From Lachnospiraceae bacterium (GTDB lineage: Bacteria; Bacillota; Clostridia; Lachnospirales; Lachnospiraceae): a stretch of DNA of 64,000 nucleotides. The notes beneath the pieces are model-generated. The model was given only the letters and a program-made list of their open reading frames with translations, was not told where the DNA came from and made no database searches. The first letter of the stretch is position 1. Each line of letters opens with the position of its first letter. The position numbers were made by a program, and so were the translations under genes. The stretch lies in contig CAJTEM010000006.1 in NCBI GenBank assembly GCA_910575255.1, positions 106,357 through 170,356 of the forward strand, in the 5' to 3' direction. Below, in pieces: positions 16,683-25,754 of the stretch.

Positions 16683-16729
16683 ATATCATGGGAAAGTGTG
16701 TCCTATGATACGAAAACACTCTGCGAGGT

Positions 16730-16758
16730 TGCTGAGTGCCAGCGGCACTCGTTTAGCA
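16730..16758. repeat. 29-nt double-stem hairpin element, copy B
   Basis: Outer stem TGCT/AGCA and inner stem AGTGCC/GGCACT around loop AGC. Against copy A (12904-12932), the second outer pair changes C-G to G-C and the third inner pair changes C-G to T-A, both keeping pairing. It lies in the leader of the DUF1848 gene; 16566-16866 otherwise holds only the terminator. Confidence 0.75.
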
Positions 16759-16866
16759 GCGACCGAAGTGGAACGTAGATTGCACTACGCGCAGAGGAAG
16801 CGCGGTCGGGGAGACGCGGGAGAAGAGGTTGGGCCAGAGGTTTTTATTGAAAGGACGGGACAAAGC

Positions 16867-17799
16867 ATGATTTTGAGTGTCAGCAGGAGGACGGATATTC
16901 CCAATTATTATTTTGACTGGTTCTGCAACCGGATTCAGGAGGGGTTTCTTCATGTGCGTAACCCGATGAATGAGAGGCAGGTCAGTTATATTGACCTGTC
17001 GCCGGAGGTAGTGGACTGTATTGTCTTCTGGACGAAAAATCCTGCGGCGATGCTGGGACAGCTTCCGGTTTTTCGGCATTATCCCTATTATGTACAATTT
17101 ACCCTGACCGGGTATGGGAGGGATGTGGAACCGGGGCTGCCGAATAAGCCGGTTGTACTTATGGAGACATTTCGGACCCTTTCCCGGAGGATTGGGGAAT
17201 CGCGGGTGATATGGAGGTATGATCCGATCCTGTTTAATCCGGTATATACGCCTGCCTATCATCTGAAAGCATTTGCGAAGATTGCCGAAGGGCTGGAAGG
17301 CTATACAAAGCGGGTGGTGATCAGCTTTGTGGATCCGTATGCCAGGATTCAGAAGAATATGAACAGCCTGAAGGTCCGGGATCTGCCGGAAAAGGAGCTG
17401 TTGCTGTTCGCAAAGCAGTTGGCTGATCTTGCGGGGAAGCACCATATGGAGGTGGAGTCCTGCGCAGAGCTTTTTGATTTGGAGGCAGCAGGTATCCGCC
17501 GGGGGAGCTGTATTGACGCCAGGCTGATAGAGGAGATCACAGGCTGCCGGATTCTGGCCGGTAAGGATAAATACCAGCGGAAGGAATGCGGCTGTGTGGA
17601 AAGCATTGAGGTGGGGACCTATAATACCTGCAGAAGCGGCTGCCGTTACTGCTATGCCAATTACAGTGAGGCAGCGGTTCAAAATCATACGAGACTGTAT
17701 GATCCGCATGCGCCGCTTTTGTGCGGGGTGGAGGGGGAAAAAGATAAGCTGACAGTGCGGAAGATGAAGTCTCTGCTTGACAGACAGCTCTCTATATGA
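16867..17799 (+). CDS. DUF1848 family protein with a Cys cluster
   Basis: A 310-residue protein beginning MILSVSRRTDIPNYY, the DUF1848 signature. WTKNPAA and WRYDPI follow, and near the C-terminus GTYNTCRSGCRYCYANY supplies CxxxCxxC-like cysteines that could hold an iron-sulfur cluster. An upstream CGC stretch adds further cysteines (ECGCVESI). The fold resembles radical-SAM or DNA-photoproduct lyase-like proteins, but no function is established for the family. The start at 16867 is where family similarity begins; upstream in-frame text passes through the hairpin repeat and looks non-coding. It appears monocistronic. Confidence 0.85.
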   Translation: MILSVSRRTDIPNYYFDWFCNRIQEGFLHVRNPMNERQVSYIDLSPEVVDCIVFWTKNPAAMLGQLPVFRHYPYYVQFTLTGYGRDVEPGLPNKPVVLMETFRTLSRRIGESRVIWRYDPILFNPVYTPAYHLKAFAKIAEGLEGYTKRVVISFVDPYARIQKNMNSLKVRDLPEKELLLFAKQLADLAGKHHMEVESCAELFDLEAAGIRRGSCIDARLIEEITGCRILAGKDKYQRKECGCVESIEVGTYNTCRSGCRYCYANYSEAAVQNHTRLYDPHAPLLCGVEGEKDKLTVRKMKSLLDRQLSI

Positions 17800-17802
17800 C
17801 TT

Positions 17803-17867
17803 TTTGAATGATTTGCAAAAAAATCCACAAGTTCGGCAAAAAACATACCAGGAGTTTCCTTTATAAT
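17803..17867 (+). promoter_or_regulatory. Promoter of the TRAP operon with 21-bp direct repeat (AraC-type site 1)
   Basis: The 20-mer TTTGAATGATTTGCAAAAAA (17803-17822) is identical to the one at 22022-22041. A second GCAAAAAA starts 21 bp after the first (17815 and 17836), two helical turns. The -10 TATAAT is at 17862-17867, 26 bp past the second half-site, and there is no good -35. This is the layout of an activator-dependent promoter. Confidence 0.75.
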
Positions 17868-17918: not shown

Positions 17919-19007
17919 ATGAATTTCAGACGGTTTGCGGGGCTGGCTCTGGCAGTGCTGGCGGCGGGAAGTATGACGGCGTGCGGAGGCGGATCTCAGG
18001 CGCAGAAGGCGGAGGCACCTGCCGGACAGGCTTCGGAGGACAGTGGCAAAGGCGGCAGTGAGGGCAAAGGCGGGGCAGCAGCCGGGGAGGCGCAGGTGAT
18101 TCTTACTCTGGCAGAGGTGAATCCGGCGGATTCTCTGGACGGTCAGGTGGAGAGCTATTTTAAAGAACAGGTAGAGTCCTTAAGCGGAGGAACGGTGCTG
18201 ATTGACATTCAGGCAAGCGGGGTGATGGGGGCGGAAAATGATGTCCTGGATGGGATGACGACCAACGGTGGAACGGTTGATATGGCGCGTATTTCCAGCT
18301 TTGCCCTTACCAATTATGGAGCAAAGCTTTCGGCGCTTCCCAGCATTCCTTATACCTTCAATGATCGGGAGCATTACTGGAAATATGCGGACAGTGAGAT
18401 CGGACAGAGAATCCTGGATGAGCCTTCTGAGATGGGGCTGGGAATCAAGGGTTTGTTTTTTGTGGAGGAAGGTTTCCGCAATTTCTTTGTGAAGGATGAG
18501 ATCGACGGGATAGAAGGAATGAAAAATAAGAAAATCCGTGTATCTTCGGATCCGATTCTGACGGCAGTGGTGGAGCAGGTGGGAGCGAACCCGACCGTGG
18601 TGTCTTTCAGCGAATTGTATTCCAGCCTGCAGTCCGGAGTGGTGGACGGTGCAGACCAGCCAATCGTGACCTATGAGTCGAATGCTTTTAATGAAGTGGC
18701 ACCTTATATGCTGGAGGACGGACACACGATGAGCGCCTCGGAAGTGATTATTACGGAAGCGGCATGGGAAAAGCTTTCGGAGGAGCAGAAGGCGGCTATC
18801 GAGGAAGCCGGCAAGGCGACCAGCGCTTACTGTAAGGAGTTGTCTGCCAGGACAGAGGAGGAGTGTAAGGCTCGTCTCGAGGAGAAGGGTGTTATCTTTG
18901 TGGCGGTTCCGGACAAGACGCCGTGGCAGGAGGCATGCAGTGGGGTGATTGCCCAGTATACGCAAGGGCTTGAGGAGGAGTATCAGCAGATACTGGATCT
19001 GAAGTAG
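17919..19007 (+). CDS. dctP: TRAP transporter solute-binding lipoprotein DctP
   Basis: A 362-residue extracytoplasmic binding protein. It has a lipoprotein signal peptide with lipobox MTAC (Cys at about residue 25), a Gly/Ala/Lys-rich linker, then the DctP fold. IRVSSDPILTAVVEQVGANPTVV followed by SELYSSLQSGVVDGADQP is the conserved ligand-binding region. The Arg of IRV usually binds a substrate carboxylate, so an organic acid or sulfonate is expected. The start at 17919 was chosen for AAGGAGG eleven bases upstream. It leads a P-Q-M operon controlled by the promoter at 17803-17867. Confidence 0.93.
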   Translation: MNFRRFAGLALAVLAAGSMTACGGGSQAQKAEAPAGQASEDSGKGGSEGKGGAAAGEAQVILTLAEVNPADSLDGQVESYFKEQVESLSGGTVLIDIQASGVMGAENDVLDGMTTNGGTVDMARISSFALTNYGAKLSALPSIPYTFNDREHYWKYADSEIGQRILDEPSEMGLGIKGLFFVEEGFRNFFVKDEIDGIEGMKNKKIRVSSDPILTAVVEQVGANPTVVSFSELYSSLQSGVVDGADQPIVTYESNAFNEVAPYMLEDGHTMSASEVIITEAAWEKLSEEQKAAIEEAGKATSAYCKELSARTEEECKARLEEKGVIFVAVPDKTPWQEACSGVIAQYTQGLEEEYQQILDLK

Positions 19008-19134: not shown

Positions 19135-19674
19135 GTGAAGAGCGTGAAGAGATTTTATGATATTCTTTATCAGATTATCATGGTGGTGTGTAAGCTGCTG
19201 CTGATTGCGGATATTGCCATCACCTCCATGGCGGTTGCGGGTCGTTATATTTCTTTTATACCGGATCCGGTCTGGAGTGAGGAGATTGTGCTGACCTGCA
19301 TGATCTATATGGCTCTGATCAGTGCGGCGCTGGCGGTTCACAGAGGCTGCCATATCCGGATGACGGCGCTGGATGCTTACCTGCCAAAGGCTGTGGTGAG
19401 GCTTCTGGATGTTTTCGGGGACGTGATTGTGCTGATATTTGCCATGATTATGGCAGTGGTGGGGATGCAGTATGCTTTGAATGTGGGAAAGAACAGTATG
19501 TACACCAGCCTGTCCTGGCTGTCCAAGTTCTGGCTGTATGTGCCGGTTCCCATTGCCGGAGCAGCGATTGTGCTGTTTCAGGCAGGGGCGTTGTATCGTC
19601 ATGTGAGGATCTTGCTGGGGAAGGAAGAGGTCTCTTCGGAGATTTCAGGATGCCCGGAAAACGTGGATGATTAA
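19135..19674 (+). CDS. dctQ: TRAP transporter small permease DctQ
   Basis: A 179-residue protein with four membrane helices and the family sequence VWSEEIVLTCMIYMALISAA, typical of DctQ. It forms the membrane complex with DctM. The GTG at 19135 is the most plausible start but its ribosome site is weak (GAAAGTGA); a nearby in-frame GTG at 19144 is possible. It is 14 bp upstream of dctM. Confidence 0.9.
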   Translation: MKSVKRFYDILYQIIMVVCKLLLIADIAITSMAVAGRYISFIPDPVWSEEIVLTCMIYMALISAALAVHRGCHIRMTALDAYLPKAVVRLLDVFGDVIVLIFAMIMAVVGMQYALNVGKNSMYTSLSWLSKFWLYVPVPIAGAAIVLFQAGALYRHVRILLGKEEVSSEISGCPENVDD

Positions 19675-19688
19675 GGAGGAGACAACGG

Positions 19689-20984
19689 ATGATTATTAAC
19701 AATACGGCGGTGCTGATTTTGCTGGTTTCCTTTTTTGCCATGATTCTTTTGCGGGTAAATATTGCGTTTGCTGTGGGGATGGCATCCGTGCTGTGCCTGT
19801 GGTATATGGGGATTCCGCTCAGCAATGTTTGCCAGCAGATGGTGAAGGGGCTGAATTCCTTTTCTCTGATGGCGGTGCCTTTCTTTATTACCATGGGCTG
19901 CCTGATGGGAAGCGGGGGGATCTCAGAAAAGCTGATTAATCTGGCGAATGCATGTGTGGGATGGATGCGCGGCGGAATGGCGATGGTGAACATCGTGGCG
20001 TCATATTTTTTTGGCGGAATTTCCGGTTCAGCCACAGCGGATACGGCTTCCCTGGGTAAGATCCTGATTCCCATGATGGTAGAACAGGGGTATGACGCGG
20101 ACTTTTCCACCGCGGTTACGATTACCTCATCGGTGGAGGGGCTTCTGGTTCCGCCCAGCCATAACATGGTAATCTATGCCATGACTGCAGGGGGAATCTC
20201 GGTGGGTTCGCTGTTTATGGCGGGATATGTGCCGGGAGCGCTGCTTGCGGTTTCTCTGATGATTGGCTCTTATGTGATCTCTCTGAAGCGGAATTATCCG
20301 AAGGGGGAGCCTTTTAACCTGAAGTATTTTCTGGAGGAGTTGGGAAAATCCTTCTGGGCGCTGGCAGCAGTCCTGATTGTGGTGGTTGGCGTGGTCGGGG
20401 GTGTGTTTACGGCTACGGAATCGGCGGCGATTGCCGTTATTTACAGTCTGATCGTCAGTGTGTTTATCTACAGGGGCCTGGACTGGAAGGGAGTATGGAA
20501 GGTTCTGGGCGAGTGTGTGGACACGCTTTCGATTGTGCTGATTCTCTGCGGCACATCCAGCATTTTCGGGTATTGCCTGACCTACCTGCATGTGCCGGAT
20601 CTGGCGTCCATGGCGATCACCAGCATTTCCAGCAACCGGATTGTGCTGATTTTGCTGATCAACCTGATTCTTCTGGGGCTTGGGTGCATCATGGATATGG
20701 CGCCGATTATCCTGATCGCCACTCCGATTCTGCTTCCGCTGGCGAAAAGCATCGGTATGGATCCGGTCCAGTTCGGAGTGATTATGATCCTGAATTGCGG
20801 AATCGGCTTGCTGACGCCGCCGGTAGGGACATGCCTGTTTATCGGCTCTGCGGTGTCAGGAGTGCGGATTGAGAAGATTGTCAAGGCCACGCTGCCCTTT
20901 TATCTGTGCATGCTGGCAGCGCTGCTGCTGATTACATTTGTTCCGCAGATCAGTCTGTTCCTGCCGAGTCTGTTTATTCATTGA
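19689..20984 (+). CDS. dctM: TRAP transporter large permease DctM
   Basis: A 431-residue, about 12-helix permease. FFGGISGSATADTASLGKILIP, PPSHNMVIYAM and MDPVQFGVIMILNCGIGLLTPPVG are DctM hallmarks. AAGGAGG lies nine bases before the ATG. It ends the P-Q-M operon and is followed directly by a long palindromic element that probably terminates transcription. The substrate is unknown; the shared regulatory site with the SufS/SufE/isomerase operon suggests they handle the same compound. Confidence 0.94.
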   Translation: MIINNTAVLILLVSFFAMILLRVNIAFAVGMASVLCLWYMGIPLSNVCQQMVKGLNSFSLMAVPFFITMGCLMGSGGISEKLINLANACVGWMRGGMAMVNIVASYFFGGISGSATADTASLGKILIPMMVEQGYDADFSTAVTITSSVEGLLVPPSHNMVIYAMTAGGISVGSLFMAGYVPGALLAVSLMIGSYVISLKRNYPKGEPFNLKYFLEELGKSFWALAAVLIVVVGVVGGVFTATESAAIAVIYSLIVSVFIYRGLDWKGVWKVLGECVDTLSIVLILCGTSSIFGYCLTYLHVPDLASMAITSISSNRIVLILLINLILLGLGCIMDMAPIILIATPILLPLAKSIGMDPVQFGVIMILNCGIGLLTPPVGTCLFIGSAVSGVRIEKIVKATLPFYLCMLAALLLITFVPQISLFLPSLFIH

Positions 20985-21014
20985 AGCTAAGAAAAGAGAG
21001 AAAAAGATATTCAG

Positions 21015-21059
21015 CCTTGGAAAAAGGGGGGAACCGTCGGTTCCCCCCTTTTTCCAAGG
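21015..21059. repeat. Perfect 21-bp-arm palindrome of the CCTTGGAA family, probable terminator
   Basis: Two perfect 21-bp arms (21015-21035 and 21039-21059) with a GTC loop, starting CCTTGGAAAAA and ending TTTTTCCAAGG, followed by CGTACCTTTTT. The same end sequences bound the 242-bp element at 33659-33900. Lying between convergent dctM and araC genes, it can fold from either strand and likely terminates both. Confidence 0.85.
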
Positions 21060-21100
21060 CGTACCTTTTTGTGATACCTAAAGTTAATAGCATTACGGTT

Positions 21101-21979
21101 TCAAGACATTTTCTTCCGGTATTGCAGAGGGCTGCAGCCGGTTCTGGCTTTAAAGACCCGGGAGAAGGAGCTGAGGCTGCCGTAGCCGGTCTCCTGGCTG
21201 ATGAGTTCTATGGAGTGGGTGCTGTTGATCAGGAGGTTCTTGGCCCGGGTGATGCGGTATTCCGTGATGTATTCGCTGACAGTCATGCCGGACACTTCTT
21301 TGAAGATGTAATAAAGCTGGGTCTTGCTGAGACCGAAATGTCTGGCGATGTCCTCGGTATTCAGTTCTTCGTGGTAATATTTTTCCACAAAGTCGTATAT
21401 CTGGTAGACTAAGTCGGAATGGAGACTGCGGATGGCAGTGGGAGCAGCTCCGTATTGGCCGCAGTAGCACTGGTTTGTCAGAAGAAGAAATTGTCCCAGC
21501 AGAAATTTGGTGTGAAGATTGCCAAAGGCTGCGGGGATGGCGGGATCCGGGCTGTTCTGGAATTCGTTCATCTGTTCCAGCAGGGAGAGAAAAGCAGCGT
21601 GGTATCCGTCCGGAATGGGGAGGATGTATTTTTTGCGTTTCTGGCTGAGCAGAAAGCACTCGAGCAGATTGACCTCCGGGGTGGACAGACGGGAGATGTA
21701 ATTGGAGGAAAAATACAGCACATACCGGTCGCAAGGAGAGGAGGGATCGCTGTTGAACATGTAGTGCAGGTTCATCTGATCCAGCAGAATAATGCCGTAT
21801 CGGGGGATGTGTGCGAGGTGATCTTCGAACCGACATTTCAGATTGTCAGAAAGGGCAATGACGATTTCCAGCTGACGGTGGCAGTGAAAGGTTCTTTTTT
21901 CGGTCATATTGGAGATCTTGTGCCGGATGGAAAATTCTTCCGGAAATATCTCGTTGTAGCGGAGTCGATTGACGGACAT
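21101..21979 (-). CDS. AraC-family transcriptional regulator
   Basis: A 292-residue regulator. It has an N-terminal cupin-like sensing domain (about 20-170) and the C-terminal double helix-turn-helix (about 190-290), with EDIARHFGLSKTQLYYIFKE and SYGSLSSFSRVFKARTGCSP-like text (the second as GYGSLSSFSRVFKARTG) ending PLQYRKK. AAAGGAGG precedes the ATG at 21979. It lies divergent from the SufS operon and convergent with dctM. The two 21-bp-spaced direct repeats upstream of both operons are the natural candidates for its binding sites, so it is probably the activator of both. Confidence 0.9.
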   Translation of the reverse strand: MSVNRLRYNEIFPEEFSIRHKISNMTEKRTFHCHRQLEIVIALSDNLKCRFEDHLAHIPRYGIILLDQMNLHYMFNSDPSSPCDRYVLYFSSNYISRLSTPEVNLLECFLLSQKRKKYILPIPDGYHAAFLSLLEQMNEFQNSPDPAIPAAFGNLHTKFLLGQFLLLTNQCYCGQYGAAPTAIRSLHSDLVYQIYDFVEKYYHEELNTEDIARHFGLSKTQLYYIFKEVSGMTVSEYITEYRITRAKNLLINSTHSIELISQETGYGSLSSFSRVFKARTGCSPLQYRKKMS

Positions 21980-22021: not shown

Positions 22022-22086
22022 TTTGAATGATTTGCAAAAAATTCAATGCTATCAGCAAAAAAAGCCGGAGGGATTTTTTGTATACT
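22022..22086 (+). promoter_or_regulatory. Promoter of the SufS/SufE/isomerase operon with AraC-type site 2
   Basis: TTTGAATGATTTGCAAAAAA at 22022-22041 is identical to site 1. The two GCAAAAAA half-sites start at 22034 and 22055, again 21 bp apart. The -10 TATACT (22081-22086) is again exactly 26 bp past the second half-site and lacks a -35. The site lies in the divergent gap with araC. Confidence 0.75.
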
Positions 22087-22122: not shown

Positions 22123-22557
22123 GTGCATATGGTGGGTGAGATTGCGGAGGCTTCAAGAAAGGCGGGGGAGATTCTTAAGGGAATCCGGGAACTGTCCGGG
22201 GAACGGGTAAGCGCAGCTGTGCTGCTTCCTTTATTACAAAAGGCAGTGTGCTGTAAACTGATGGTCGGGGAGCAGCAGGAGGGTAATATCCGCAATCTGG
22301 TGATCCTCAGCATTAAGCTTCAGGACCAAAGGGCAGGGAATCTGTCGGATGAAACGATCGGGCGTCAGATTAAGAAATATGACTGCCACCAGACCAGCCT
22401 GGCGGCGCAGAAGAAGGTGCTGCTTCTGATGTATCTGGAGCGGGAACTGGGATTCCATATGAATGATGACGAGGCTACTTCGATTGAGACACTGGAGGAT
22501 TTGTCAAATTTGGCGGCGGCTTATCTGGCTAAGGAAAGGTGCTTCCAATCATCTTAG
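22123..22557 (+). CDS. Small unknown protein, possibly carrier-protein-like
   Basis: A 144-residue soluble helical protein, first gene of the operon. I do not recognise a named family. The C-terminal part (HQTSLAAQKKVLLLM then ELGFHMNDDEATSIETLEDL) resembles helices II-IV of acyl carrier proteins, including a TSL at the place of the phosphopantetheine DSL, but spacing is three residues longer and the match is by eye. Cysteines occur as AVCCKLM and KYDCHQT. The GTG at 22123 sits ten bases after AGGAGG; the ATG at 22129 is an alternative. It ends 16 bp before sufS. Confidence 0.6.
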   Translation: MHMVGEIAEASRKAGEILKGIRELSGERVSAAVLLPLLQKAVCCKLMVGEQQEGNIRNLVILSIKLQDQRAGNLSDETIGRQIKKYDCHQTSLAAQKKVLLLMYLERELGFHMNDDEATSIETLEDLSNLAAAYLAKERCFQSS

Positions 22558-22573
22558 ATCAGGAGGTAGGGGA

Positions 22574-23800
22574 GTGAGGGTTCATGAGATTCGGGAGGAG
22601 TTTCCGTTTTTTGGCAAAAGGGGAGGGGAAGAGGAGCCTCTCATCTATTTTGACAACGGGGCGACGACCCAGAAGCCCCAGGCGGTGATTGACCGGCTGG
22701 TGGAGTATTACAGCCGGGAGAATTCGAATATTCACCGGGGGGATTATCCCTTAAGCAGCCGGGCGGAGAGAATGTATGAGCATGCCCGGGAGACGGTGGC
22801 AGAATGGCTGGGGGCAAAGACGCCGGAGGAGATTGTGTTTACGAAAGGCAGCACGGAGGCGGTTAACCTGGCGGCGGCCTGTGTGGGGGAGACCTGGCTG
22901 AAGCCGGGGGATAATCTGGTGGTCACGGAACTGGAGCATTCTTCGAATTATTTTCCCTGGAAGCGTCAGTGCGAGAAACGTGGCGCGCAGCTTCGGGTTG
23001 CAGAGGCAGAAACAGACGGAACGCTGAAGACGGAAGCAGTGATCTCCCGGATGGATGAGAGGACGAGGCTGGTGGCGGTTACGGCCATGTCCAATGTCAC
23101 GGGATTCCGTCCGGATGTGGGGCGGATTGTAAAAAAGGCCCATGAACTGGGAATTCCTGTGCTGGTGGATGCTTCTCAGGAGATTGCCCACCACAGGGTA
23201 TCGGTCCGGGAAACGGATTGCGATTTTCTGGTTTTTTCCGGCCATAAGGTGTATGGTCCCATGGGAGTGGGGGCGCTGTATGGCAAGCGGAAATGGCTGG
23301 AGGAACTGCAGCCGTATCTTTATGGCGGAGGGATGGTGCAGCGGGGGGACTGCGGCTGTATCAGATATCGGAGAGACCCGGGAAAGTATGAGGCGGGGAC
23401 GCAGAACATTGCCGGGGCGCTGGGGCTGGAGGCGGCGCTTGGGTTTTTGAAGCGGTGGGATTTTTCCGGGATTGAGGAATATGAGCGGCAGCTGGGGCAG
23501 TGCCTGAGAGAGAAACTTGAGAAGATTCCGGGAGTCCGTCTTTTGGGGACTGAGAGGGATTCTCCGGTGCAGGTGTTTGAATCGGAATGGATGGGCGCCT
23601 ATGATATGGGGGTGCTGTTGGGAAACCGGGGAATTGCGGTGCGCTCCGGCGCCCATTGTGCTTATCCTCTGATGGAGCGGATGGAAAAGGAGAGCATTTG
23701 CCGGGTGTCGCTGGCCTTTTATAATACGGCCGGGGAGATCGAAAGCTTTGCCGGGACGATGAGGGATCTGCAAAAAAAGTTTGGAAGAAAAGGAAACTGA
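22574..23800 (+). CDS. sufS: SufS-type cysteine desulfurase
   Basis: A 408-residue PLP enzyme that takes sulfur from cysteine. The PLP lysine is Lys225 (FSGHKVYGP) and the persulfide cysteine is Cys362 (RSGAHCAYP), matching Lys226 and Cys364 of E. coli SufS. FDNGATTQKP and NIHRGDYPLSSRA are class II signatures. The GTG start at 22574 is set by AGGAGG seven bases upstream; longer readings lack a site. No sufBCD genes lie near. With SufE, a FucI-like enzyme and a shared regulator with a TRAP transporter, it more likely serves a specialised sulfur-transfer pathway than general Fe-S assembly. Confidence 0.93.
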   Translation: MRVHEIREEFPFFGKRGGEEEPLIYFDNGATTQKPQAVIDRLVEYYSRENSNIHRGDYPLSSRAERMYEHARETVAEWLGAKTPEEIVFTKGSTEAVNLAAACVGETWLKPGDNLVVTELEHSSNYFPWKRQCEKRGAQLRVAEAETDGTLKTEAVISRMDERTRLVAVTAMSNVTGFRPDVGRIVKKAHELGIPVLVDASQEIAHHRVSVRETDCDFLVFSGHKVYGPMGVGALYGKRKWLEELQPYLYGGGMVQRGDCGCIRYRRDPGKYEAGTQNIAGALGLEAALGFLKRWDFSGIEEYERQLGQCLREKLEKIPGVRLLGTERDSPVQVFESEWMGAYDMGVLLGNRGIAVRSGAHCAYPLMERMEKESICRVSLAFYNTAGEIESFAGTMRDLQKKFGRKGN

Positions 23801-23873
23801 GGCAGGGAACAGAGGGAGCTTTGAGAAAGGAAAAAGAATTTCGTTAATATCTGGGAAAGAAAGGAGGGCAAAG

Positions 23874-24269
23874 ATGGGAGTGGCAGAACGGGAGAAAAAG
23901 TACAGGGAAGAGCTGGCGGTTCTTGAGGATCCGGCTTCGCAGTGTGAATATCTGATGTTTCTGGGAATGCAGGGGCAGGAAAAGGAAACCTTGCGAAAGG
24001 ATATTCACCGGATTGAGGGCTGTAAGACGGCAATCTGGATGAGAGTCTGGCGTGATCTGCACGGGGTGCATTTCCAAGGGGACAGTGATTCTCTTCTGGT
24101 GAGGGGAGTGCTGGCGATTCTTGAGGATTTGTATGAGGGGGAGAGCCCGGAGGCTGTGCGGGCACATCCGCCAAAATTCCCGGGGGATATCTCGGATGAG
24201 GTGATCTATCCGGAGATCAAGAAAAACGGCATTTTAAAATGTTATCAAAGGCTGGCTGCCTTAGAATAA
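23874..24269 (+). CDS. sufE: SufE-family sulfur acceptor
   Basis: A 131-residue SufE protein. The acceptor cysteine is Cys50 in RIEGCKTAIWMRV, equal to Cys51 of E. coli SufE, and the second signature GDSDSLLVRGVLAILEDLYEG is intact. It stimulates SufS by taking its persulfide. Start ATG at 23874 follows AAGGAGG by six bases. Firmicutes normally use SufU rather than SufE, so its presence outside a suf operon is unusual. It lies 73 bp after sufS and 33 bp before the isomerase-like gene. Confidence 0.88.
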   Translation: MGVAEREKKYREELAVLEDPASQCEYLMFLGMQGQEKETLRKDIHRIEGCKTAIWMRVWRDLHGVHFQGDSDSLLVRGVLAILEDLYEGESPEAVRAHPPKFPGDISDEVIYPEIKKNGILKCYQRLAALE

Positions 24270-24302
24270 ATCAATTATCTTAAAAGGAAAAGGAGAATTG
24301 TT

Positions 24303-25754
24303 ATGAAGTATGCAATGGATGTAAAGGTAAATCTGAGACCGGTATTCAGTAATCTGGTACATACGGACTGGTGGGAGGGTCCCTGCCGGGTGGGCGTGGA
24401 AGAGGAGGGGACTCCGGAGTATGAGCGTCGGGTGGGAAAGGAGCAGTTTAAGATCTGGTATGAGGAACTGAAGGAGAACCTTGACCTTACCCGCTGTAAT
24501 CTGATGGAGCCGGTGTATATGGAGTTTGATGAAAGTTTTGTGATGCGGGATTCGGAGTTTGAGAAGCTGATTCCCACCAACCACGAAGTGGACCTGTATC
24601 TGATTACCTACCGCGTGCCGGGGATTGAGCGCCTGAACAAGCCGATTTCCATGATTAACCTGGGGCCGACTCCCATTGACCTGATTGGGTACTACCGGGA
24701 TCTGGGGCTGGAAGCGTACATGGCGCATGATTATGAGGAGTACAATAAGGTTCTGAAAAATATGCAGGTGCGCAAGGCGATTCAGAACACCAAGATCCTG
24801 ATTTTGTCGAATTCGGAGCAGACGCCTGCTTCTGTCAATACCAGCTGCTGCGATCTGGTGGGGCTGTTTACCCGTTATGGAATCCGCAATAACCGGATTG
24901 ACTTCCGGCAGGTGTTCCGGTACATGGATGAGATCCCGGCGGATGACAAAATTAAGGCTGAGGCAAAGGCGCTTATGGAGGGTGCCGGGAAAAACGATAT
25001 CACGGAGGAATATCTGTGCAATGACCTGAGATATTTCCATGCGGTACGTACCATGATGGAAAAGTATGACTGCAATGCTTTTACCACTCCCTGCAAGGAA
25101 CTGTGTGCCAGCCGTCTGCCGCAGAAGTATAAATTTGTTCCCTGTATGGCGCATTCCCTGAATAAGGATGACCGGATTCCGTCGGCCTGCGAAGAGGATC
25201 TGGCAGTGTGGATGGCCATGATGGTAATGATGTACCTGACACGGCAGAGTGTATTTATGGGGAATCCGGTTTTGGTGCTGGCCGGAAGCAAGACCCTGGA
25301 GCAGCTGGGTATGCCGAAGCTTTTGACTCAGCCCGGACAGACCTTTGACCATGATGTGCTGGAAATCCATCATGCGGTGCCGGCCACGAAGATGCGTGGT
25401 TTTGACCAGCCGGCCCAGAATTATGAACTGGGGCATTTTACGACTCAGGGCTGGGGCGCTCACTATCACGTCAATATGGCGGAGGAAGACGGCCAGGTGG
25501 TGACTTTCGGGCGCTTTAACCGTCAGGGAACCAAGATGATGGTGGCGGTAGGCCATACCTTGGGCTGTGAGTTCCGGCCGGTATATTGCAGTCCGGCAGT
25601 TTATTATGAGGTAGAGGGCGGAGCAAGGGAATTCCGCCAGGCTCTGGCCAACGGCGGCTACGGGCACCATCAGGCGGTGATTTATGGAAATCATGTGAAG
25701 GAGTTGCAGGAACTGGGGAAGGTCGTTGGATTTGAGGTGGAGTATTTTCACTAA
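24303..25754 (+). CDS. L-fucose isomerase-like (FucI/AraA fold) protein
   Basis: A 483-residue cytoplasmic protein that appears to belong to the fucose/arabinose isomerase superfamily. The stretch SACEEDLAV with Glu297 resembles the CESD metal-ligand motif of FucI (Glu337). Twenty-four residues later FMGNPV has Asn321 where FucI has the ligand Asp361, the same spacing. LEIHHAVPATKM and a terminal HHQAVIYGNH add histidines. The N-terminal half is poorly conserved. If real, the Asp-to-Asn change implies altered metal binding or chemistry. AAAAGGAG lies seven bases before the ATG. It ends the sulfur-linked operon; the substrate is unknown. Confidence 0.6.
   Translation: MKYAMDVKVNLRPVFSNLVHTDWWEGPCRVGVEEEGTPEYERRVGKEQFKIWYEELKENLDLTRCNLMEPVYMEFDESFVMRDSEFEKLIPTNHEVDLYLITYRVPGIERLNKPISMINLGPTPIDLIGYYRDLGLEAYMAHDYEEYNKVLKNMQVRKAIQNTKILILSNSEQTPASVNTSCCDLVGLFTRYGIRNNRIDFRQVFRYMDEIPADDKIKAEAKALMEGAGKNDITEEYLCNDLRYFHAVRTMMEKYDCNAFTTPCKELCASRLPQKYKFVPCMAHSLNKDDRIPSACEEDLAVWMAMMVMMYLTRQSVFMGNPVLVLAGSKTLEQLGMPKLLTQPGQTFDHDVLEIHHAVPATKMRGFDQPAQNYELGHFTTQGWGAHYHVNMAEEDGQVVTFGRFNRQGTKMMVAVGHTLGCEFRPVYCSPAVYYEVEGGAREFRQALANGGYGHHQAVIYGNHVKELQELGKVVGFEVEYFH

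Follow-up and report, generated by a model that had tools for sequence, protein, structure and literature searches.

A cysteine desulfurase operon containing a FucI-like protein

We analysed a 64-kb stretch of contig C6 (hereafter the window) of a Lachnospiraceae genome of 5.14 Mb in 106 contigs, and focused on an operon on its plus strand. The operon encodes, in this order, a small protein with a predicted acyl carrier protein (ACP) fold, here called U144 (22129..22557), a SufS-type cysteine desulfurase (22574..23800), a SufE-type sulfur acceptor (23874..24269) and a protein resembling L-fucose isomerase, here called the FucI-like protein (24303..25754). Our results suggest that this operon, found in some gut Clostridia, represents an as yet uncharacterised enzyme that depends on sulfur and acts on sugars or sugar acids taken up by the cell. 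An initial annotation of the window had described the same gene set and proposed a pathway that puts sulfur into, or takes it from, an imported acid or sugar; the observation itself is confirmed, and the interpretation is partly supported.

The desulfurase, with 408 residues from a GTG start at 22574, contains the active-site residues Lys225 and Cys362 and scores 458.5 bits against TIGR01979, just below the cut-off of 475.1, while the acceptor, with Cys50, scores 66.2 bits against PF02657 (cut-off 27). The pair is complete, as annotated: 37 of the 38 desulfurase rows retain both K225 and C362, the exception being one piece of a split gene at locus L044, and 20 of the 22 SufE rows retain C50, the others being partial (L052) or carrying Tyr (L044). 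In L044 (L044:1-1522), which lies at the end of a short contig, the Tyr replaces the acceptor Cys and the desulfurase gene is divided between two frames, reflecting either error or decay. The operon indeed lacks any sufBCD scaffold gene, and the single SufB/D-type match of the genome is on contig C19. Since the SufE of the window is also the only SufE match in the genome, and an IscU-like gene adjoins another desulfurase on contig C7, the set is not an obvious housekeeping system.

Invariant cysteines of the FucI-like protein

Against PF02952 (Fucose_iso_C), the FucI-like protein remains sub-threshold (22.2 versus 29.3 bits), but profile–profile comparison by hhalign with eight FucI-like proteins of related genomes gave a probability of 99.7% (E 3.1e-26, 387 columns). 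This sequence comparison strongly supports its membership of the FucI fold family, in agreement with the initial annotation. The sulfoquinovose isomerase SftI model NF048012 matched with 31.9 bits for the window protein and 53.7 bits for the copy in L093, with a cut-off of 700. In a sequence search of the PDB, the family profile returned only matches with E of at least 0.67 and the protein of the window a single match at E 0.3, and a scan of viral contigs gave no relative of the protein.

An alignment of 44 FucI-like rows (including L135, and leaving out L031, L032 and the short extraction L087) revealed seven invariant cysteines, C28, C257, C264, C268, C281, C296 and C429, together with H20, N321, H357 and H456, all in 44 of 44 rows. 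Among 21 relatives from outside the family (L115-L126 entered this cysteine comparison only), none has C28 or C268 and one has C257 (L126). The metal ligands of FucI are E337, D361 and H528; of these, the first maps to E297, kept in 41 of 44 rows, and the last to H456, whereas the D361 column is Asn in all 44, although the register there is uncertain and one alignment sets Asp against G320. At L037:6950-8290 and L089:4062-5378, a weaker second FucI-like relative without C28, C257 and C268 shares the locus with a Cys-rich copy.

Linkage to cysteine desulfurases across genomes

Counting the window's own genome, the FucI-like protein was detected in 19 of 299 genomes surveyed in the family, 10 of 295 in the order (nine strong), 3 of 391 in the class and 15 of 398 in the phylum, where only the window's own genome was strong. 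A contig scan gave nine FucI-like loci with 78–88% identity in the best segment, two of which were records already found. Linkage was then counted within 5 kb of 44 FucI-like copies scoring above 300 bits, leaving out L031 and L032 (the same records as L054 and L057) and L135 (292 bits). As a result, the gene set proved to stay together in relatives: a desulfurase lies near 36 of the 44 copies and SufE near 23. U144 accompanies 25, an unrelated protein of about 97 residues (S97) 13, and one or the other 38, so that desulfurase plus either small protein is found at 31. By a rough hand calculation from the five desulfurase-like genes above 168 bits in 5.14 Mb, the chance of a desulfurase near a random gene is about 1%. 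Eight loci of more distant, weakly matching relatives (L094-L101) served as a control; fetched out of 15 weak matches (seven of the 14 from the phylum survey and one from the order survey), they contained no desulfurase in the fetched stretch.

In a tree made by a quick method from 50 rows (L087 left out), the window clade (12 rows), with SufS, SufE and U144, was placed next to a clade whose desulfurases are TIGR01977-like (12 rows, 13 loci) and in which S97 occurs at 13 of 13 loci; the support for this sister relation is 94, without a star. In the other main clade, SufS is usually accompanied by SufE and U144, but the desulfurase of L093 is NifS-like and that of L090 SufS-like. These class names denote the nearest models below cut-off for the window SufS, L090, L091 (TIGR01977, 321.7 bits, cut-off 377) and L093, and were assigned by similarity for the others. 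Linkage thus persists though the nearest desulfurase model varies among SufS, TIGR01977 and NifS, and the FucI-like protein is the constant part.

Small partner proteins U144 and S97

The U144 open reading frame (ORF) spans 22123-22557 and encodes 144 residues from 22123, with a probable ATG start at 22129. The initial annotation likened its C-terminal half to an ACP; ACP models indeed match residues 99–128, weakly, and the predicted AlphaFold structure, with a mean predicted local distance difference test (pLDDT) score of 82.8, gave ACP fold matches, while no Pfam family matched at E 0.1. A single cysteine of U144 is invariant (codon 22384-22386, C88 counted from 22123; 24 of 24 rows), and it precedes the place of the phosphopantetheine serine by six or seven residues. 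This place corresponds to column 94 or 95, depending on the register, where Ser occurs in 1 and 4 of the 24 rows, respectively; column 93 has Ser in 13. We therefore rejected an ordinary ACP, since the phosphopantetheine serine of the DSL motif is not conserved.

ACPs in complex with cysteine desulfurases are known from NFS1-ISD11, judging from PDB titles, and from E. coli, where ACP forms a complex with IscS but did not bind SufS in a two-hybrid test (PMC13343975). U144, in contrast, adjoins SufS or is fused to it (L048, L049 and L058). Since L058 belongs to a different clade from L048 and L049, the simplest account is that the fusion arose repeatedly. Moreover, genome G229 has five FucI-like copies in 2.2 Mb (L045, L128, L129 and L130), and at L128, L129 and L130 U144 adjoins the FucI-like gene with neither a desulfurase nor SufE up to 5 kb away, which makes U144 look like a FucI-specific partner. 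The distances of U144 and the FucI-like protein also correlate (Spearman 0.77, 24 pairs), but we did not count this as support because shared descent alone yields it.

S97, with one invariant cysteine in 13 of 13 sequences, lies near a TIGR01977-like desulfurase and a FucI-like gene in L034-L040, L086-L088, L091, L092 and L134. The desulfurases beside these 13 FucI-like genes resemble those of TIGR01977, but here they are paired with this unnamed protein; two of its members run against Pfam and one against NCBIfam gave no match.

A shared operator-like site and varying transporters

To the left of the operon lie genes for a tripartite ATP-independent periplasmic (TRAP) transporter, all on the plus strand: dctP, for the solute-binding lipoprotein (17919..19007; PF03480, 199.1 bits), whose ORF opens at 17808 with the lipoprotein start probably at 17919; dctQ, for the small permease (19135..19674; PF04290, 90.4 bits); and dctM, for the large permease (19689..20984; PF06808, 384.4 bits). 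An AraC-type regulator gene, divergent from the operon, follows on the minus strand (21101..21979; PF12833, 89.7 bits). The exact 20-mer TTTGAATGATTTGCAAAAAA, an operator-like site, occurs twice on the plus strand, upstream of the TRAP genes (17803..17822) and between araC and U144 (22022..22041), with an expected count of 0.01 in 64 kb; no third match was found in the window allowing up to three mismatches. The initial annotation had the operon share its control site with the transporter. The repeated 20-mer bears this out, but the TRAP genes form a separate unit with their own copy, and araC lies between that unit and the operon.

Half-sites about 21 bp apart are the usual appearance of an AraC-family direct repeat, and TGCAAAAAA-like half-sites with about this spacing were read by eye in intergenic regions of several relatives. 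An AraC match lies beside the gene set in L033, L051, L053, L054, L056, L057 and L059. For the full 20-mer, the best matches in twelve stretches tried from relatives were 11 to 18 of 20, and in the short stretches before their TRAP genes the match was never above 12 of 20.

TRAP genes adjoin the set in 5 of 12 window-clade loci, namely the window and L053, L054, L056 and L059, in the last four directly. Elsewhere we found fructose-type phosphotransferase system (PTS) genes in L051, with a class II aldolase-type gene, and in L058, with a 4-base overlap between the IIA gene and the fused U144-SufS gene; a TctC/TctA-type transporter in L055; and ATP-binding cassette genes in L057 (one permease scanned, below cut-off) and L089 (judged from ORFs only). 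No transporter was recognised beside the set in L033, and L052 lies at a contig edge. In the other main clade, the PTS genes of L090 are nearest to ascorbate models, L093 has TRAP, Ldh_2, HpcH/HpaI aldolase and SMP-30 genes as neighbours, and in L127 a citrate/sulfate-type symporter gene separates U144 from SufS. The neighbouring transporters thus point to sugars and organic acids rather than one compound, and since the transporter type differs between genomes, the imported compound may differ too.

A proposed sulfur relay and its alternatives

Its seven invariant cysteines, of which three hardly occur outside the desulfurase-linked family, speak for the FucI-like protein rather than the imported compound as the likelier sulfur target. 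The pathway reading of the initial annotation is supported for the conservation, the ACP-like fold and the link to transport, while sulfur going into or out of the imported compound is its less likely part. A private relay whose Cys-rich target stays the same while the transporter varies would best be explained by a sulfur cofactor on the FucI-like enzyme, probably an iron–sulfur (Fe–S) cluster. We hold with evenly balanced confidence that a relay running from SufS through SufE and U144 to the FucI-like protein builds this cofactor in an enzyme for an imported sugar or acid. The linkage of the genes, the conserved motifs, the U144-SufS fusions, the ACP-like fold of the predicted structure and the repeated operator-like site are observed; from them we infer the direction of sulfur flow, the type of cofactor, the reaction and the substrate as follows. 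SufS, judging from its active-site residues, would take sulfur from L-cysteine as a persulfide and SufE would accept it. U144, with its ACP fold, unconserved serine and single invariant cysteine, would pass it on to the FucI-like protein, whose cysteines would hold the sulfur-containing cofactor, most likely an Fe–S cluster adjacent to the metal site that is altered in this version of the sugar-isomerase fold. Once complete, the enzyme would isomerise, dehydrate or otherwise convert the sugar or sugar acid imported by the co-regulated TRAP transporter.

Compared with known systems, the desulfurase and acceptor with their catalytic cysteines resemble SUF, but no SufBCD lies beside them, the target is apparently one FucI-like protein, and an ACP-fold partner is added. 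Likewise, the FucI-like protein shares its fold family by profile comparison, and the kept E297 and H456, with L-fucose isomerase and SftI, but falls below the family cut-offs, carries Asn for the metal-site Asp, has extra cysteines and is linked to a desulfurase. We found no paper in a literature search on a cysteine desulfurase paired with a FucI-like or sugar-isomerase protein.

Several points weigh against such a relay. C264, C281 and C296 are present in 20 of the 21 outside relatives (the classical FucI, L115, is without them), so no dedicated relay is needed for these three, and to our knowledge ordinary Fe–S enzymes seldom need a private desulfurase. Modelled with AlphaFold from ten close sequences, the FucI-like protein reached a pLDDT of 34; this model was left unused, so any grouping of the cysteines at one site is putative. 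The linkage also has gaps. Eight of the 44 copies are without a desulfurase within 5 kb (L128, L129, L130, both L042 copies, L046, L050 and L052); for seven of them another copy in the genome has one (L045, L127, L041, L047), and the eighth, L052, has a contig edge 285 bases away. SufE is missing at 21 (the 13 TIGR01977-like copies, L090, L093, L049, L058, L046 and L128-L130), and both U144 and S97 at six (L090, L093, both L041 copies, L044 and L052). Finally, two weaker relatives do lie near a desulfurase (L037, 2.5 kb; L089, 7.7 kb), at loci that both hold a Cys-rich copy.

The main rival, which we regard as rather unlikely, is that the FucI-like protein is a thiolating enzyme that would transfer the relay sulfur into a sugar or organic acid to yield a sulfur-containing product. 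A private desulfurase with carriers would suit sulfur consumed at every turnover, the transporters resemble sugar or acid types, and carrier and target remain paired. However, no shared tailoring, activation or export genes were recognised in the loci examined, among which no systematic search was made, and the catabolic-type neighbours in L051 (PTS and class II aldolase) and L093 (TRAP, Ldh_2 and HpcH/HpaI aldolase) point to breakdown. It is more doubtful still that a persulfide on the FucI-like cysteines is the catalytic group itself, without a metal cluster; two unrelated families with a single invariant cysteine, U144 and S97, accompany the Cys-rich protein and the Asp of the metal site is replaced by Asn throughout, but the retention of E297 and H456 suggests that a metal stays.

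Removal of sulfur from an imported sulfur-containing sugar, sulfonate or thio-acid is improbable: the weak matches of the window and L093 proteins to the sulfoquinovose isomerase model would fit it, but these scores are far under the cut-off, the desulfurases keep their usual catalytic residues and would mobilise cysteine sulfur rather than accept sulfur, and no sulfonate-cleaving enzyme was recognised among the selection of neighbours scanned. A spare SufS–SufE set for Fe–S assembly in the whole cell, with the FucI-like gene as a passenger, is very improbable, since, bona fide as the pair looks by residues and domains, no scaffold adjoins it, elsewhere in the genome an IscU-like gene has a desulfurase of its own, the FucI-like gene and not the desulfurase type is constant, and the operator-like site is common to operon and transporter.

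More tentatively than the relay itself, we propose a new class of enzymes that act on sugars or sugar acids and depend on sulfur; they would combine a FucI fold with a metal–sulfur or persulfide cofactor, a relay of its own and a cysteine carrier with an ACP fold, replaced by S97 in the sister lineage. If true, this would add a sulfur-dependent member to the aldose–ketose isomerase fold, give the ACP fold a second job, sulfur carriage on its own cysteine, and reveal a catabolic step in gut Clostridia behind what present annotation calls an isomerase-family protein. The seven-cysteine pattern beside a desulfurase would serve as a simple genomic marker for finding more.

Further features near the loci

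Within the window, an inverted repeat with a 20-pair stem (21014-21060), terminator-like, lies between dctM and araC, and a gene for a DUF1848 protein (16696-17799) precedes the TRAP genes, with its stop codon ending 3 bases short of the operator-like site. In the other main clade, LysR-like regulators are often found near the FucI-like copies (L127, L041-L050; judged from ORF starts only), and genes for a CoA-transferase III and a major facilitator superfamily protein are found near L127:2364-4952. The contig of L055, binned as Spirochaetaceae, carries a FucI-like gene of 81% identity together with the TctC/TctA-type transporter, reflecting either transfer or misbinning.

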